Positions 1 through 7,206 of a stretch of DNA of 64,000 nt are shown one piece after another. The stretch comes from Bryobacterales bacterium (GTDB lineage Bacteria; Acidobacteriota; Terriglobia; Bryobacterales; UBA6623), in the NCBI GenBank assembly GCA_028819235.1, contig JAPPMC010000270.1:1-64000 (forward strand). Reading direction: 5' to 3'. The notes below the pieces were generated by a model that worked only from the letters and a program-made list of their open reading frames with translations, was not told the DNA's origin and ran no database searches. The position numbers and the translations under genes are program-made. Positions within the stretch are counted from its first letter, which is position 1. The number at the start of each line of letters is the position of its first letter.

Positions 1-2
1 CG

Positions 3-236
3 GGGAGGGGTGAGGCAGTGGTGGGCCAGATCGTGCAGGAACTGATTGACAAGGGGATGGCGCAAGGGATGGCGGGAACGTTGTCGCAGCTGCTGGAGCA
101 TCGCTTCGGTCGGCTGCCACGTCCGGTTCGCAGTCGCATCGCAGGGGCCTCGCCGTCTGAGCTGGACACCCGATTCACGACTGCGCTGGGCGCCAAGTCC
201 CTGGCTGAGGTGTTTCCGGACCTCGACCTAGACTGA
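3..236 (+). CDS. C-terminal end of a DUF4351/Rpn-family-like protein (5' end outside window)
   Basis: The frame is open from the left edge to the TGA at 234-236, so the gene probably begins outside the window; the GTG at 18 is only the first start codon visible. The residues run through a glycine-spaced helix (KGMAQGMAGT), then LLEHRFGRLP, a basic stretch and a final AKSLAEVFPDL segment. That order matches the C-terminal DUF4351 region found on many PD-(D/E)XK transposase-derived (Rpn/PDDEXK_2) proteins. The nuclease domain itself is not visible, so activity cannot be judged. It could be a remnant, because the following kilobase contains no intact gene. Confidence 0.6.
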   Translation, partial: GRGEAVVGQIVQELIDKGMAQGMAGTLSQLLEHRFGRLPRPVRSRIAGASPSELDTRFTTALGAKSLAEVFPDLDLD

Positions 237-1358
237 GGTGCACGTCTGGGCGTCCGAAAAGGGTGCGAGACGTCCACTTGGACTGGCCCGGGGGTGAGTG
301 GTTGTGTGCCTTGGCCTCTTCGTGCAGGTAGTAGGTTCGAGACTAGGGGCACATGCCGATCGAATGGCTAGCTTCGAAGCCGGTCACGCGGGCGGTGCTG
401 GTGACCCTGCACTATTCGCACGAGGGATAGGAGAGCTGACAAGACGCGGGTCCTAACGGATGTGTTGTCGTCGGTGCCGGACTGGTCGGAATTCGAGAAA
501 GTGCTGGATCACAGTTCCTGGAACAGGCTTGCACGTGCTGTCCCGGAACTCGGCCAGCAGCCCAGCATCGCTGACGGTAGGACCAATGGCCAAGCTCGGT
601 CTACCGATGCGCGCTGGCCACCGCAATGCCTTGGACTGCGCGCCCGACACTCCAGCTGCATGAGATGGTTGTCGGCGCGGCTCTCGCGCCAGAGCGAGGC
701 GGGAGGTCGGTCGCCGAGAACGGTGTGTCTCCCTTGACGGCAACCAGCTCATGCTGGCTGTCGGGCGCCTGAGAGGCACGAGATCCAGATGCTGCTGGCA
801 CCCCCGGCCAGAATCCCAGTGCACGGGGGCGTAACGTGCGCCAGGCTGCAGCGACCGCGGGCCGCCGCGAAATGGTCCGTCCACACAGCGCACCAGCGCG
901 ACAGAGCCAATCGGGCTCGTCGGCGACCGTGCCGAGCACGGGCTACCGCAGTAGCTCGACCGCATGCGACTTACTACCGATAAAGAACGGTCAAGCCGCA
1001 AGGTGCTAATCTGCTCTACCTGCGGCTATGTCTCGCTTCAGAACACCATGACACTAAGAGGAACACGCCATCCAAGATGAGTCTTGGCTACAGGGGCGAC
1101 CCCATGCCGACCCTTCGGTGTCAGGAACTGTGGGATTCATGCCGACGGGTCCAGTAAGACCGCTCCGACGTCTTGTCGGCCACCGGCAGTTCGACGGTGA
1201 AGCACGCGTCGCAAGAGCTCAACGTAGGGGGAGTCCGAAATACCTATAGGTCGCATAGTGGGAAGCCATCGGCGAACGGCCCAACCAGGTTCTGAGAACG
1301 TAGTAGCCGCGAGACGACCGGTCGTCGGTTTGCGGGCATCCCCGACCGGTGCCGCAGT
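237..1358. other. Gene-poor stretch without a recognisable gene
   Basis: About 1.1 kb. Several open frames exist on both strands (for example 453-1001 minus and 462-737 plus), but they overlap one another, are rich in Arg/Pro/Ser as expected of GC-rich noise, and show no recognisable motif. No tRNA fold, inverted repeat pair or transposase fragment was noticed. With a truncated DUF4351 gene to the left and an exonuclease III pseudogene to the right, this looks like decaying accessory DNA. Confidence 0.5.
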
Positions 1359-2120
1359 ATGATCGTAACGGTGAGAATTGCAACTTGGTGCATCGGCAGC
1401 ATCAATGTTCACCTAGACCTTCTATGCCATTGGCTAGAGAGCCGGAGGCCGGACATAGTTGCTCTGTAGAAGACGCTTGCGGCAGAGCATCAGCGCAAGA
1501 GCTTACGACGACGGTTTGAGAATGCAGGCTATCATTCGAAGTTCCACATTTGCGAGGGACAGTGGCTAAATGGTTGGGGCGTTGCCGTACTGAGCCGGAA
1601 GAAGCCGAAGGTGATGCAATGCGGCCTGCTGCCCTGTGAGGAGAATCTTGGTGCACGGTTCCTTACGGTCCGCGCGGAGGATCTCGAGTTCTCGTCTGTC
1701 TATGTGCCTTGTAAGAAGCACCCTAAGATGGCGTGGTTGCAGCAGCTGCGTGAGCATATTGAGCGGTGCGATTCAGGGTCGCGGCGCTCCGTCCTAGCAG
1801 GCGAGTTCAACGTCGTGTTGGACAGTCCACATTATACGAAAGCGGAGAAGAAGGCACTGAATCGCCTACTCAACCTGGGGTTTTCTGACCTGTACGATCG
1901 GTACAGATGCTGCCACAAGGAAACCGGGCCGGGCTACAACTTCGGACCCTCCTCAAAGAAACCGCTCACCTCGAAACTGCAGCTAATCCTCGGCACAAAA
2001 GCCATCGTCAAACAGCTGTGCAACGTCAAGGTCGATAAAGAGTATCGGCGACAGGTCCCGGGCCTTGATAATCCTAAGTGGCCTCTGTCAGCTCCAGTGG
2101 TAGTAGATCTGGCTCAGTAG
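1359..2120 (+). pseudogene. Decayed exonuclease III (XthA/AP endonuclease) with internal stop and lost catalytic residues
   Basis: Starting at ATG 1359, one frame carries a full-length (253-codon) exonuclease III-like protein interrupted by a single in-frame TAG at 1467-1469. Landmarks appear in the family order: IATWCIGSI near the N-terminus, RRPDIVAL just before the stop, GWGVAVLSR, SVYVP, GEFNVV, a GFSDLYDRYR helix, and APVVVDL at the end. The expected active-site residues are changed: TWN is TWC, LQET is L-stop-KT, GDxN is GEFN, RIDY is KLQL, and the SDHAPV motif has lost Asp-His. Downstream of the TAG, 169 codons remain open from GTG 1611. A translated product would not be an active nuclease. 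The scaffold is nevertheless well kept, so the loss may be recent or the fold may have been retained. Confidence 0.8.
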
Positions 2121-2483
2121 CGGCGCGCCGCGCTTTCGCTACCGGCGCGTCCAGAGCAACGAGCGGGATTCCTGACGGCTGCTGCGAGGGCTTGGCCGCA
2201 GGCCTCAAAAGACATGAGTTAGCTACGCACTGATGACTGACCGTGAGACATGTGCCGGCCAGTACCCAAGCCAGCCACACCGGTCCCCCCACGTCAATGA
2301 CGAGCGACGGTAACATCGTCGAGTGCAAGTCCGTCGGAAAGGGGCGTTGACGCCGGGGCGTGCCTCTGCTAATCTCTCCCGTGCCACAGTTCGGCGTGTC
2401 GGGGGCGCGGCCCCTGAACCTGGACACGCAGCCGAGACACCAAACTGGGCACACCTGAAGACGACCCAGGAGAACGAAGATCC
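2121..2483. other. Upstream region of the TonB receptor gene, no gene seen
   Basis: About 360 bases between the exonuclease relic and the TonB-dependent receptor. Short open frames here lack motifs. The last part must hold the receptor's promoter, but no convincing -35/-10 pair was found. A purine-rich CAGGAGA at 2468-2474 serves as ribosome binding site for the ATG at 2484. Confidence 0.45.
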
Positions 2484-5400
2484 ATGGCTGCTCCCCATTC
2501 CCTAAGAGGCGCGACACTCTGCTGCCTCGCATTCCTGCTTGCGGCGGCCCCCGCAAACGCGCAGTTGACAACCGGCAGCGTCACTGGACTTGTGACCGAC
2601 CCGGGCGGGGCGGTCATTCCCGGGGCAACAGTCGTGCTGACCAATTCCGACACCGGGGATGAGCGCCAGCAGGAGAGTGGCGTGGAGGGCCGCTACACGC
2701 TCTCACAGATCCAGCCGGGTACATACGAACTGTCGGTGTCCACTCCCGGGTTCAAAAGATTCGTGAGGTCCGGTATCCGGCTCCAAGCCAACCAAGACGC
2801 GGAGGTGAATGCCGCCCTCGAGCTCGGTGAGGTCACGGAAACCGTTGAGGTCGCCGCTGCTGCGATTATCTTGGACACTCAGTCCGCCAACCAGAGCAAC
2901 ACCCTCAACACCGAAGAGATCACGCAGCTTCCGATCAACTTCCGGAACCCTCTCGCCCTCGTCCACGCGAACGCGGGCGTCATCTCGATGTTCGCCCGCA
3001 GCGGTCGCACCCAGCTCCAGGACCGCGTGAGCGACCAGGACTACGGCCTCTTCTCGATGAACGGCGGTCGGGAGGCCAGCAACACGGTAAACGTCGACGG
3101 TGTGACCAACAAGGGCGGGGACTGGGGTGCCACCTTCGGCACGCCCTCTGTCGATGCCGTCCAGGAGATGCAGATCGCGCGCAACACCTATGACGCTGAG
3201 TTCGGCAAGGTCGCCAATGGCGTGGTCAGCCTGGTGACCAAAGGAGGCGGCGATGCCTTCCATGGGTCCCTGTTCTGGTTTCACCGCAACGACAACCTCG
3301 ACGCCAATCAGTGGGAGCGCAATCGCGCCGGCAACAACCGCCCCGAGTTCAAGCGCAATCAGGTCGGACTGAATGTCACGGGGCCGATCTGGCGAACACG
3401 TGGGATCTATGGCCTGTTCGGCTACGAGGCCATGCGGCTTCCGTCCGCCCGGACAACTGTCCAGACCATGCCGCCGTCGCTCGAGCGTGCGGGCGACTTC
3501 AGCCAGAGCTTCAACGGGAATGGCTCGCTGCAACAGATCTATGACCCTTTCACGACGCGCGCAAACCCGGATGGCGGAGGATTCATTCGCGATGCGTTCC
3601 CTGGCAACCTAATTCCTGCATCTCGGTTTGATCCGGTAGCGGTCAATGTCCTCAAACTGTTTCCGAGTCCAACGCGCCAAGGAGTCGGCGTGACCAACGT
3701 GAACAACTTCTTCAAGACGGTCCCATTTCGTCAGGAAGTTGATCGATACGATACCCGTGTTGACTGGACCAAGAGTCAAACCTACAGCACATTCGTTCGT
3801 TGGAGCCGATCAGACTTGCTGAACAACAGTCCGCGGTTTTTTGACAACGGAGCAGATACTGGATTTGAGAACGGACAACCGTTCTACAATGTCAGTTGGA
3901 GCAACACTATTGTTCCTTCAGCAACTTGGGTGATCAATTTCAACGCGGGCACGGGGGGTGGTCATCGATTTGCAAACCCAATTCCGAATGTGGATGGAAC
4001 AAGTCTGACTGACCTAGGTTATCCGCAGTCTTATGCGGATCTATTCCAGAATCAGAATTTGGGCCAATACGCTCTCAGAGAATACAGCACTATCGGACGT
4101 GCGCGACTGTTTCAAAATATACGCAGGACACATACAGCGGGCATCAATGTGACCAATGAGCGCGGAAATCACAGTCTCAAGTTTGGGTTTAATTTTGAGG
4201 CAATTCAGTGGAACTTCCTTGATTCTCGCACACCGGAACTGTCGTTCAGCCGGGGGCCCACTACCGGCCCTATTGCCGTCGGGAACAGTGGTGTCGTGGG
4301 AAACTCGGTGGCGTCACTGCTGCTGGGAGTTGGCGGGGGAAGCGTCAGGTTTTCGGGCGATCCGGCCTTCACTCAGAAGTATGTTGCGTGGTACTTCCAA
4401 GACACTTGGCGTGTCACGACCGACCTGACTCTAACTCTGGGATTGCGATATGAGCAGCAGCATCCGCGGACCGAACGCTTCGAGCGTCAAGCGTACTTTG
4501 ATTTCAACGTCTCCAACCCGATCGGAGACACTGCAGGATTCCCCGTTAGGGGAGGAGTCAACTTCACCAACCCGGACAACCGAGGCATCACGGCGCTGGA
4601 CGCGAGAGATTGGGCACCGCGACTTGGTCTGAGCTACAAGATCACGGACAGGTTGGTGATGAGGGGCGGCTACGGTGTCTCTTACTCTCAGACCTATATT
4701 GAGTCCGGAGTGAGCGGGATGGATGGCTTCGACCTGCGATCCACATGGGAGACAAACCCGGATGGAGTCGTACCGGTCAATCTGTTGAGCAATCCCTTTC
4801 CGAATGGACCGGATATGCCAACAGGAACTTCCCTAGGTCTGGCTACAGCTCTTGGTGCCAACGTCAACGCTTGGCCTCGTGACCACCCGACCCCCTATGT
4901 CCAGAGCTTCAGTCTCGACTTTCAGTACGAAGTGGCCCCAGGGTCCGTGTTTGAGATCGGGTACTCCGGAAATCGTGGCAGAAAGTTCGCTTGGGGATCG
5001 AATCGGAATTTCAATCAAGTCCCGATAGAGAACCTCAGCATGGGTGAGCGACTTAATGACAGGGTCCCGAACCCGTTCTTCGGGCACATAGCGTCGGGGC
5101 CGCTAAGCGGCAGTACTGCACCGATGCATCGCTTCCTGCGGCTCCACCCTCAATTCAACAACGTCAACGTTGCCCGGAGCAGCAAGGGAGCCACGTCAAA
5201 CTTCAACGCACTCTACGTCAAGTTCACGCGCCGGTTCTCTGAAGGTCTCACAATCCTGAGCAGCTACCAGTGGGCGAGGGCCGAAGACAATGCCTCGGAG
5301 GACCAAGGCTGGTTCGTTAGCGATGCCTTCCGCGATGTGTTCGACCCCTCAAGCGACTACTCCGTCAGCGCACACGACCTTCCGCATGATTTCGTGACCA

Positions 5401-5933
5401 ACCTCGTGTGGGAGTTCCCCGTAGGCAGGGGACGCGCAATCGGCGGCAACATGGGCAGGGCCCTCGATGCCGTCGTCGGAGGCTGGCAGGTGGCTGGAAC
5501 TATTCGCTTCAGCGCCGGAGTGCCGATCAACATACGTGCGCCCAATACCTTGGGAGCGTTTGGCTTTGGCGTGAAGCGCTCGAATCTTGTGGGCAGTCCC
5601 AAGCTCAGCAATCCGACGCCTGAGCGGTGGTTCAACACAGACGCGTTCGAGGCTCCGGCACGGTTCGAGCAAGGAACAGCACCACGGTACATCAATGAGC
5701 TGCGACAGGACGGCATCGCCAATGCCGACATTTCCTTGGGCAAGAACTTCCGGATTCACGAGAAACTGACCGCTCAGTTGCGAGCCGAGTTCTTCAATCT
5801 GACGAACTCTCCGGTGTTCGGCGTGCCGATCGCCGGGGGACCTGTCACGGTAACCAACGGAGCATTCGGGCGGGTCGTGAGGACGTTGGGCGCACCACGC
5901 CAGGTTCAGATGGCCCTGAAGCTGGTCTTCTAG
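2484..5933 (+). CDS. TonB-dependent receptor with N-terminal carboxypeptidase-regulatory domain (Oar-like)
   Basis: Outer-membrane receptor of 1149 residues. Residues 1-26 form a signal peptide ending ANA. A carboxypeptidase-regulatory-like (beta-sandwich) domain follows at about 28-115, with GxVtDPgGAvIPGAtVvLtn and the YtLsqiqPGtYeLsVstPGF pattern. A plug domain comes next (NEEIT-like and NGGREASN stretches), and a long beta-barrel ends in LVF with a C-terminal aromatic residue. This architecture is greatly expanded in Acidobacteriota and is usually linked to uptake of large substrates such as glycans or siderophores; the ligand cannot be read here. The start is supported by a ribosome binding site about 9 bases upstream. 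Between about 3600 and 4250 the DNA is clearly richer in A/T at third codon positions than the flanks, suggesting a recombined segment. Confidence 0.93.
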   Translation: MAAPHSLRGATLCCLAFLLAAAPANAQLTTGSVTGLVTDPGGAVIPGATVVLTNSDTGDERQQESGVEGRYTLSQIQPGTYELSVSTPGFKRFVRSGIRLQANQDAEVNAALELGEVTETVEVAAAAIILDTQSANQSNTLNTEEITQLPINFRNPLALVHANAGVISMFARSGRTQLQDRVSDQDYGLFSMNGGREASNTVNVDGVTNKGGDWGATFGTPSVDAVQEMQIARNTYDAEFGKVANGVVSLVTKGGGDAFHGSLFWFHRNDNLDANQWERNRAGNNRPEFKRNQVGLNVTGPIWRTRGIYGLFGYEAMRLPSARTTVQTMPPSLERAGDFSQSFNGNGSLQQIYDPFTTRANPDGGGFIRDAFPGNLIPASRFDPVAVNVLKLFPSPTRQGVGVTNVNNFFKTVPFRQEVDRYDTRVDWTKSQTYSTFVRWSRSDLLNNSPRFFDNGADTGFENGQPFYNVSWSNTIVPSATWVINFNAGTGGGHRFANPIPNVDGTSLTDLGYPQSYADLFQNQNLGQYALREYSTIGRARLFQNIRRTHTAGINVTNERGNHSLKFGFNFEAIQWNFLDSRTPELSFSRGPTTGPIAVGNSGVVGNSVASLLLGVGGGSVRFSGDPAFTQKYVAWYFQDTWRVTTDLTLTLGLRYEQQHPRTERFERQAYFDFNVSNPIGDTAGFPVRGGVNFTNPDNRGITALDARDWAPRLGLSYKITDRLVMRGGYGVSYSQTYIESGVSGMDGFDLRSTWETNPDGVVPVNLLSNPFPNGPDMPTGTSLGLATALGANVNAWPRDHPTPYVQSFSLDFQYEVAPGSVFEIGYSGNRGRKFAWGSNRNFNQVPIENLSMGERLNDRVPNPFFGHIASGPLSGSTAPMHRFLRLHPQFNNVNVARSSKGATSNFNALYVKFTRRFSEGLTILSSYQWARAEDNASEDQGWFVSDAFRDVFDPSSDYSVSAHDLPHDFVTNLVWEFPVGRGRAIGGNMGRALDAVVGGWQVAGTIRFSAGVPINIRAPNTLGAFGFGVKRSNLVGSPKLSNPTPERWFNTDAFEAPARFEQGTAPRYINELRQDGIANADISLGKNFRIHEKLTAQLRAEFFNLTNSPVFGVPIAGGPVTVTNGAFGRVVRTLGAPRQVQMALKLVF

Positions 5934-5973
5934 CACCGCTGGCGATGCTTCCCCAAGCCTGATCGTCCCAGGC

Positions 5974-7206
5974 ATGGGAACGGAAGTGACGCCCGAGACG
6001 GCCAAGCCGAACGGCCATGGCCCCCGTCGCCGTCAGAGTAAGGGCCATGCCGGCGATGTGCCGCGTCGGGCGCAACGGGGCAAGCAGGCCGTCGGGGGAC
6101 CAGTCCGGCCCGGCTTGTACGTCTCAATCCCGTTTTGCGCGCAGAAGTGCACGTATTGCAACTTCAGCTCCCAGGTCTACCGGCGGTCGCTCAGGACGCG
6201 CTACATCTCGTGCCTATCGACAGAACTGCGAGAGACCGATCCCGGAGACCCGGACACGCTCTATCTGGGCGGGGGAAGCCCGAGCATGCTCGAACCACAG
6301 GAGTTCGCGCTGGTCGCGGCCTGCCTGCCTGCCCGCGAGTGGGCCGAGGCCACCATCGAAGTCGCGCCGGGCGAGGCGACGTCGGGGCGCCTGAGAGAGT
6401 GGCTCAAGGCGGGAATGACCCGCGCCAGCCTAGGCGTCCAGTCCTTCGACCCCCGGGTCGCGCGACAGTCCGGCCGGCGCCACACTCCGGAGACCGTGCT
6501 GTCCCAGATCCGGCTCCTGCGGGACGGGGGAATCCGCCAGATTTCAGTCGACCTGATCGCTGGCCTCGCACGCCAGACCCGCGCCACTTGGGAGCGGTCT
6601 CTGGAGTGGGTTGAGCGCGTCGACGTGGAACACGTGTCGGTCTACATGCTGGAGGCCGACGATGAGAGCCGCTTGGGACGGGAACTGCAGTCCGGGGGCC
6701 AACGCTACGGTGCCCTTCACGTGCCATCCGAGGACGAGATCGTCGACATGTACCTGACCGCCGTAGAGGGCCTGCGTGGGTTGGGTTATGAGCGCTACGA
6801 AGTATCCAACTTTGCGCGCACCGGGGCCCGCAGCCTCCACAACCTGAAGTACTGGCGCATGGAGCCCTATGTGGGATACGGCAGCGACGCGCACTCCTTC
6901 AATGGCAGAGTGCGCCGGCAAAACGTACCCTCGGCGCCAGAATACGTCTCGCGTATTGACGCCGCGCGCTCACCCCTTGACAGGAAGGAGGAGCTAGACG
7001 CTGCCCGCCTGCTGGAGGACCGCGTCCTGACCGGCCTGCGTGCCTCGGACGGGATCCGCCTCCGAACGGACGAGTGGAGGCAACTGCTGCCACCCGCCCG
7101 CCGACTGGCCGCGCGCGGCTGGCTGAGAGTGCAGCAGCCGACGCTGCGGCTCACCGACGAGGGAATGCTCTTCGCCGACCAAGCGGTCCTTGAACTGCTT
7201 GGCTGA
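5974..7206 (+). CDS. hemW: HemW-like radical SAM protein (coproporphyrinogen III oxidase family)
   Basis: The radical SAM cluster motif CxxxCxxC is at Cys55, Cys59 and Cys62 within FCAQKCTYCNF. It is followed by the GGGSPS element, SLGVQSFD and DLIAGL, and later YEVSNFA and GYGSDAHSF, all in the order seen in HemW/YggW proteins. HemW is a heme chaperone rather than a true oxygen-independent coproporphyrinogen oxidase (HemN); the short C-terminus and the absence of HemN's extra N-terminal cysteine favour HemW. The N-terminal 45 residues are basic and poorly conserved, so the true start may lie nearer GLYVSIPFC. Its 3' end overlaps the end of the opposite-strand helicase by 56 bases. Confidence 0.85.
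   Translation: MGTEVTPETAKPNGHGPRRRQSKGHAGDVPRRAQRGKQAVGGPVRPGLYVSIPFCAQKCTYCNFSSQVYRRSLRTRYISCLSTELRETDPGDPDTLYLGGGSPSMLEPQEFALVAACLPAREWAEATIEVAPGEATSGRLREWLKAGMTRASLGVQSFDPRVARQSGRRHTPETVLSQIRLLRDGGIRQISVDLIAGLARQTRATWERSLEWVERVDVEHVSVYMLEADDESRLGRELQSGGQRYGALHVPSEDEIVDMYLTAVEGLRGLGYERYEVSNFARTGARSLHNLKYWRMEPYVGYGSDAHSFNGRVRRQNVPSAPEYVSRIDAARSPLDRKEELDAARLLEDRVLTGLRASDGIRLRTDEWRQLLPPARRLAARGWLRVQQPTLRLTDEGMLFADQAVLELLG

Follow-up and report, generated by a model that had tools for sequence, protein, structure and literature searches.

The closest described relative of the gene analysed here is exonuclease III (XthA), for which NExo and AfExo are the nearest solved structures. We use the numbering of the E. 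coli enzyme (ExoIII) throughout and take Asn7, Glu34, Asp151, Asn153, Asp229 and His259 to be its catalytic residues, with Glu34 a metal ligand. A relative of ExoIII and the AP endonucleases, Crc of Pseudomonas, has the same fold and lost catalysis while the protein itself was kept. In the accessible portion of one study, Crc is reported to have no nuclease activity in assays and a reduced positive charge, and to have lost the equivalents of APE1 Asp210 and Asn212 while keeping those of Asp283 and His309 (PMC3662782). The available extract of a second study describes Crc as acting in an Hfq-Crc complex (PMC9890229). What we describe here is best read as a conserved family of XthA-derived pseudonucleases, probably nucleic-acid binders that do not cut, carried as an accessory gene and represented in the window by a decaying copy. 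We give this reading a probability of about 0.75. Our literature search found no description of such a family, a statement that covers the search and not all published work.

The window is the whole 64-kb stretch of DNA that we analysed, the initial 64 kb of a 139-kb contig (C155) in a genome of 7.19 Mb. Translation of positions 1359-2120 on the forward strand gave a frame of 253 codons with a terminal TAG at 2118-2120, no frameshift and one internal stop, confirming the first-pass annotation's description of a full-length XthA-like frame with a single nonsense codon (Table 1). The 169 open codons that it also counted are those of the ORF beginning at a GTG at 1611; after the stop, 216 codons are open. 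With X placed at the stop, the frame matched Exo_endo_phos (PF03372; 6.1e-7, above the Pfam cut-off) and, at best 9.8e-9, solved ExoIII structures; TIGR00633 xth matched at 2.7e-18 with 66 bits, short of its 99-bit cut-off. The likeness of the frame to XthA is thus well beyond chance. Its ATG start is common to two orthologues (L009/L057 and L010/L058, with MIAD or MIAE ahead of MR[IV]ATWC), and its codon-position G+C is gene-like, resembling that of L057. The claim that each active-site position is altered stood for TWC, the Lys after the stop, GEFN, KLQ and the absence of Asp-His in PLSAPV, and fell for Tyr109 and Asn153, which are kept.

Table 1. Features of the pseudo-XthA locus in the window, with ExoIII numbering of residues.
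Feature	Position	Strand	Basis or comparison
Decayed pseudo-XthA gene	1359-2120	+	Full-length XthA-like frame, single internal stop
Cys at the Asn7 position (TWC)	1389-1391	+	Asn lost in 29/29 relatives; Asn in 22/22 ordinary XthA
Internal stop TAG	1467-1469	+	Gln33 position, invariant in 25 intact aligned relatives
Lys at the Glu34 position, directly after the stop	1470-1472	+	Lys in 29/29 relatives, Glu in 22/22 XthA
Tyr109 equivalent, kept	1701-1703	+	Site comparison with 29 relatives and 22 XthA
E-F-N (GEFN): Asp151 to Glu in the window alone, Asn153 kept	1803-1811 (Glu 1803-1805, Asn153 1809-1811)	+	Asp in 29/29 relatives
Gln at the Asp229 position (KLQ)	1980-1982	+	Relatives: His 21, Gln 8 of 29
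Leu-Ser replacing Asp258-His259 (PLSAPV)	2085-2090	+	Site comparison
Stretch without match in eight genus relatives, ahead of the hemW-dinG block conserved in them (from about 6100)	1-6100		Flank comparison
Outer-membrane beta-barrel gene	2484-5933		Within the 1-6100 stretch, with pseudo-XthA

Within the genus (11 genomes), seven of the 10 relatives of the window genome carry an open orthologue that shares 50-53% identity with the window frame. Every one of these orthologues has TWC, QK, GDFN and RLH, together with QSAPV, ASAPV or QGAPV. A separate XthA with canonical catalytic sites, 36-41% identical to the window frame, is present in all 10 relatives and in the window genome itself (L002). 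Because the open orthologues carry the catalytic losses and canonical XthA is a separate gene, these losses predate the decay of the window copy. The proposal of the first-pass annotation that the fold was already non-catalytic, and was kept, before this copy decayed is therefore supported: orthologues with the same substitutions and without the TAG, for which it had suggested a search, exist in these seven relatives (TWC, QK, RLH and no SDH) and are under purifying selection. No near homologue with intact catalytic residues, which would have pointed to ordinary decay, came to light; the canonical XthA genes of these genomes lie on the opposite side of the tree. A further pseudo-XthA copy in the window genome (L028, about 5758-6530, minus strand; contig C303) reads QK, RLH and AAPV and is frameshifted by a 20-bp tandem duplication.

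We scanned genome_contigs, which holds one genome per species for 84,980 species, using the genus alignment as query, and obtained 28 loci, 26 of them open. The scan seeds required ATWC or VALQK and bias the result at those two sites; the seven genus orthologues and the divergent L119 and L121 (subfamily D), all recovered without these seeds, likewise have Lys34. Catalytic sites were then compared between 29 relatives from Acidobacteriota, Gammaproteobacteria and Alphaproteobacteria, among which near-identical rows are not independent, and 22 ordinary XthA. The 29 do not include the window copy, the C303 fragment, L079 with its eight stops, or L078, which is the L117 gene again, and weaker hits (for example in G267, G272 and G273) were left unread. 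Tyr109, Asp151 and Asn153 are kept in every relative and every XthA. Position 34 is Lys in 29/29 relatives against Glu in 22/22 XthA, and position 7, Asn in all 22 XthA, is Cys in 15 relatives, Ser in 11, Ala in two and Val in one. The Asp found at position 229 in 22/22 XthA is replaced by His (21) or Gln (eight), that at position 258 survives in three of the 29 against 22 of 22, and His259, present in all 22 XthA, has given way to Ser (16), Ala (nine), Gly (three) or a gap (one). The catalytic set is thus split, with Asp151 and Asn153 kept in 29/29 and the other four residues lost in 29/29. In broken L079, Asn7 is retained, as TWN alongside QK.

The family differs from XthA beyond the catalytic residues. 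Where XthA has the substrate-pocket Trp-Trp, the first residue in the family is Asn, Ser or Thr and the second is mostly Tyr or Phe. Net charge is at least +1 in 24 of the 29 relatives (range -6 to +14) and -1 or lower in 20 of the 22 XthA. The charge shift is diffuse: of eight columns that are basic in at least 85% of the family, only Lys34 is not basic in XthA as well.

An AlphaFold2 model of L057, built on a 25-row alignment (pLDDT 87.1, pTM 0.89), matched AfExo (Z 31.3, rmsd 2.2, 241 aligned), NExo (Z 30.3, rmsd 2.5, 243 aligned) and E. coli ExoIII (Z 28.5, rmsd 2.7, 244 aligned). The family therefore resembles XthA in fold, length, whole-length homology and the retention of Tyr109, Asp151 and Asn153; unlike XthA, it is without Asn7, Glu34, Asp229, His259 (and, in 26 of 29, Asp258) and the pocket Trp-Trp, is mostly basic where XthA is acidic, and occurs beside a real XthA. 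Of 18 family-bearing genomes outside the genus, 16 hold an XthA of their own with canonical residues wherever the sites were covered, the remaining two not having been read. All 25 intact aligned rows match TIGR00633, the NCBI exodeoxyribonuclease III model, at E<=0.001 (L057 with 103 bits, above the cut-off), and annotation pipelines may consequently call them exodeoxyribonuclease III and be counting implausible DNA-repair enzymes.

In a careful tree of 42 rows (18 family, 24 XthA) rooted on E. coli ExoIII, the family formed one branch (100/100, length 1.1). It grouped with Acidobacteriota-type XthA at 100/99, with one gammaproteobacterial XthA, L122, inside the group. A quick tree (31 versus 22 rows) also recovered the family as one branch. 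A quick rplB tree, in which the names of host groups rest on record titles, placed the hosts in Acidobacteriota lineages, Gammaproteobacteria (G262, G263, G271-273), Alphaproteobacteria (G261, G274) and a Gemmatimonadota-like pair (G265, G269). The family branches do not track these hosts: a gammaproteobacterial copy on an 80-kb contig (L065) sits among Holophagales-type copies, and subfamily D spans an alphaproteobacterium, a gammaproteobacterium and an acidobacterium. We rejected direct cross-phylum transfer for L063, L067 and L071, which lie on contigs of 14-18 kb and are near-identical to copies of other lineages; these are probably contigs misplaced in bins.

An even draw across the phylum found the family in four of 396 genomes at E<=1e-54, and 11 further genomes passed, each with a canonical XthA. 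At E<=1e-66, a cut-off that would miss subfamily D (3.6e-61), it was present in 5/72 genomes of one order and 1/194 in the order of G271. At E<=1e-48, too strict for divergent members like the C303 copy (1.6e-36), an order-wide profile search found eight of 257 genomes, all in the window's genus. Searching the order for the pattern RLH...APV hit 61/257 genomes; it picked up the C303 copy but none of the seven genus orthologues, its other hits looked like chance, and it was discarded as too loose. The window fragment alone as query retrieved no relative, and no family member was found in viral_contigs. Plasmids at E<=1e-25 returned only two genes annotated xth (exodeoxyribonuclease III), at 33-35% identity and with their sites unread. 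Most likely the gene is an accessory one that moves horizontally and sits in genomes that also have an ordinary XthA of their own. Broken copies (the window, C303, L064, L079 and a split copy in G272) imply that the gene is dispensable in places. In genome G272 itself L076 is open, the split copy (C107:14868-15676) lies in two pieces about 2.6 kb beyond it, and L079 is heavily broken.

The hosts are probably sponge-dwelling bacteria, to judge from isolate names (RHO, CO, SB, jk and p16); a literature search found no paper tying these names to sponges. In the accessible part of a survey of sponge bacterial genomes, symbionts are reported to exchange genes laterally and to be enriched for restriction and CRISPR genes (PMC8163846). 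In the available extract of a further study, genes annotated as ExoIII in sponge Alphaproteobacteria have higher daytime levels (PMC12879404); these genes need not be members of the pseudo-XthA family.

Selection on the family was assessed by NG86. dN/dS was 0.13-0.41 in 39/39 pairs from five groups, with a bootstrap upper limit below 1 in 38, so that intact members are kept by purifying selection. Ten close pairs of genus orthologues gave 0.22-0.37 against 0.07-0.16 for XthA in the same pairs (ratio 1.7-5.4), so that constraint is moderate. Between the window copy and its orthologues dS was saturated (1.4-1.9) and was not used. Of 41 family-invariant residues, 31 remain in the window copy, compared to 95-100% in each of the 25 intact rows, and its ten losses include the stop, the aligned start Met and Asp151. 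Measured from the node at which it joins its sisters, its branch exceeds theirs moderately (0.66 versus 0.39-0.52 in the careful tree; 0.74 versus 0.33-0.53 in the quick tree). The stop and the lost family-invariant residues show that this copy is decaying. Neutral decay of L057, simulated with substitutions and no indels, gave a mean of 4.1 stops at 72% amino-acid identity, with at most one stop in 10% of 300 runs, and 1.5 stops at 90% identity, with at most one in 55% of runs. This hints that the window copy was under constraint until recently. That a distinct pseudo-XthA family exists and that the window copy is a decaying member of it is, in our judgement, very probable.

Across lineages the pseudo-XthA gene stands alone, and once sulfatases and the synteny that five genus relatives share are set aside, no neighbour recurred in at least four loci. 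Some copies, however, have integrase, restriction-modification or toxin-antitoxin genes close by. The open copy in L076 is preceded on the same strand, at 65-77 bases, by type III methylase and restriction genes (L076:3453-8816); L059 has a C5 methylase and a helix-turn-helix protein as neighbours; in L068 and its near-copy L071, and also in L073, phage-type integrases lie at a distance of about 2 kb; the L063/L065 lineage has Fic, helix-turn-helix and BrnA neighbours; and AbiEii and ParE lie near L072 and L077, respectively. Around 20 copies, 118 ORFs no more than 3 kb away (107 kb) matched 160 PADLOC models at E<=1e-8; around 15 XthA loci, 89 ORFs no more than 3.5 kb away (103 kb) matched 12. 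The models overlap heavily, single proteins matching 35-37 of them each, and 25 of the 160 were listed by name; the contrast is a hint rather than a rate. The flank comparison left out L053-L056, L062, L063, L064, L067, L071, L079 and the window, as well as the controls L184, L186, L192, L193 and L199. For the comparison of window positions 1-6100, upstream sequence extended at least 9 kb in six of the eight genus relatives and only 1-2 kb in the other two.

How the window copy came to its present state can be explained in other ways. Ordinary recent decay of a catalytic XthA, with the catalytic losses as random hits, would account for the stop and for ten losses among 41 family-invariant positions. 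Some sister copies are indeed broken, as the first-pass annotation had expected of ordinary decay, and the change of Asp151 to Glu, the stop and other changes at family-invariant positions are the window's own. The losses of Asn7, Glu34, Asp229 and His259, however, are common to the open orthologues and the 29 relatives. With the genome's XthA being a separate canonical gene, we regard this explanation as next to impossible. An assembly error at the TAG, leaving an intact window copy, would suit a frame that is otherwise open with codon-position G+C like that of L057; it is improbable, as nine of the 41 family-invariant positions differ besides the stop, Asp151 included, so that decay is evident independently of it. 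Somewhat more weight, though still doubtful, attaches to the idea that the gene is cargo of mobile or defence islands and acts as a defence or counter-defence factor. The restriction-modification, integrase and toxin-antitoxin-type neighbours and the PADLOC contrast speak for it. Against it stand the lack of a recurrent neighbour, the redundancy of the PADLOC models, 25 of which were listed out of 160, the outcome of the viral and plasmid searches and, according to the accessible part of the sponge survey, the general richness of sponge symbionts in such genes (PMC8163846).

Other explanations concern what intact members do. Among known proteins Crc is the closest analogue of the family: its structure 4f1r ranked 42nd in a Foldseek search with the L057 model (21% identity), its structure 4jg3 matches the family profile (4.1e-13), and in the portion of the source available it showed no nuclease activity in assays (PMC3662782); for the family, loss of catalysis would follow from the residues. 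A Crc-like regulator repressing translation with Hfq is nevertheless very unlikely. Hfq was found in seven of 23 family-bearing draft genomes, all seven alpha- or gammaproteobacterial by rplB, and not in the other 16; the same search was positive in five of 14 control genomes, including E. coli. The missing Hfq makes the Crc mechanism unlikely to be general in the family. Moreover, as far as the available text describes Crc, the opposite half of the active site was lost, and the positive charge of Crc is reduced while the pseudo-XthA family is mostly basic (PMC3662782). An enzyme that is still an active phosphoesterase, with chemistry re-engineered through Lys34 and Tyr109, Asp151 and Asn153 and acting on another substrate, is also unlikely, if less so. 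All four residues are invariant in 29/29, and Lys34 is a specific replacement rather than drift; however, His259 (Ser, Ala, Gly or a gap) and Asp229 (His or Gln) have no conserved substitute, and position 7 varies among Cys, Ser, Ala and Val.

We favour a conserved XthA derivative that would bind without cutting. The catalytic residues would have been lost apparently once, before the family spread, and intact members keep the predicted ExoIII fold with part of the active-site floor (Tyr109, Asp151 and Asn153). Lys34 would sit at the metal ion's place and pair with the retained Asp151, and nucleic acid, or a partner bound to nucleic acid, would be gripped without being cut. Without the metal ligand, Asn7, Asp229 and His259, hydrolysis is unlikely, and the kept residues and mostly positive net charge fit binding. 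Judging by its residues the family would lack nuclease activity, although lost residues do not prove lost activity, and that intact members bind nucleic acid is a tentative proposal to which we give slightly less than even odds. A role as an abasic-site shield is less likely, the pocket Trp-Trp having been lost.

More speculatively still, the family may be a second, independent non-catalytic branch of the ExoIII/AP-endonuclease fold, in which Lys in place of the metal grips the backbone uncut, and which moved among distant bacteria of one animal-associated community, is Hfq-free and possibly serves as a regulator or as a DNA or RNA shield against nucleases. The interest lies in the family behind the window copy, which is itself a relic. 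If binding without cutting is true, the family would be a further case besides Crc of a repair fold repurposed, with the other half of the active site lost and mostly free of Hfq. The question of how a nuclease fold becomes a regulator or shield would then be open to comparison of two separate losses.

Two minor observations concern neighbouring sequence and the ordinary genes. Between a DUF4351-like end (18-236; weak, below the cut-off) and the pseudo-XthA gene, about 1.1 kb of the window (240-1358) holds no convincing gene and is possibly further decayed sequence. In all 11 ordinary XthA of the genus (L002 and L011-L020) the aligned frame opens at TTG, and in 10 of them a TAATA precedes it by no more than about 10 bases; from this arrangement the TTG start may possibly be coupled to an upstream stop.
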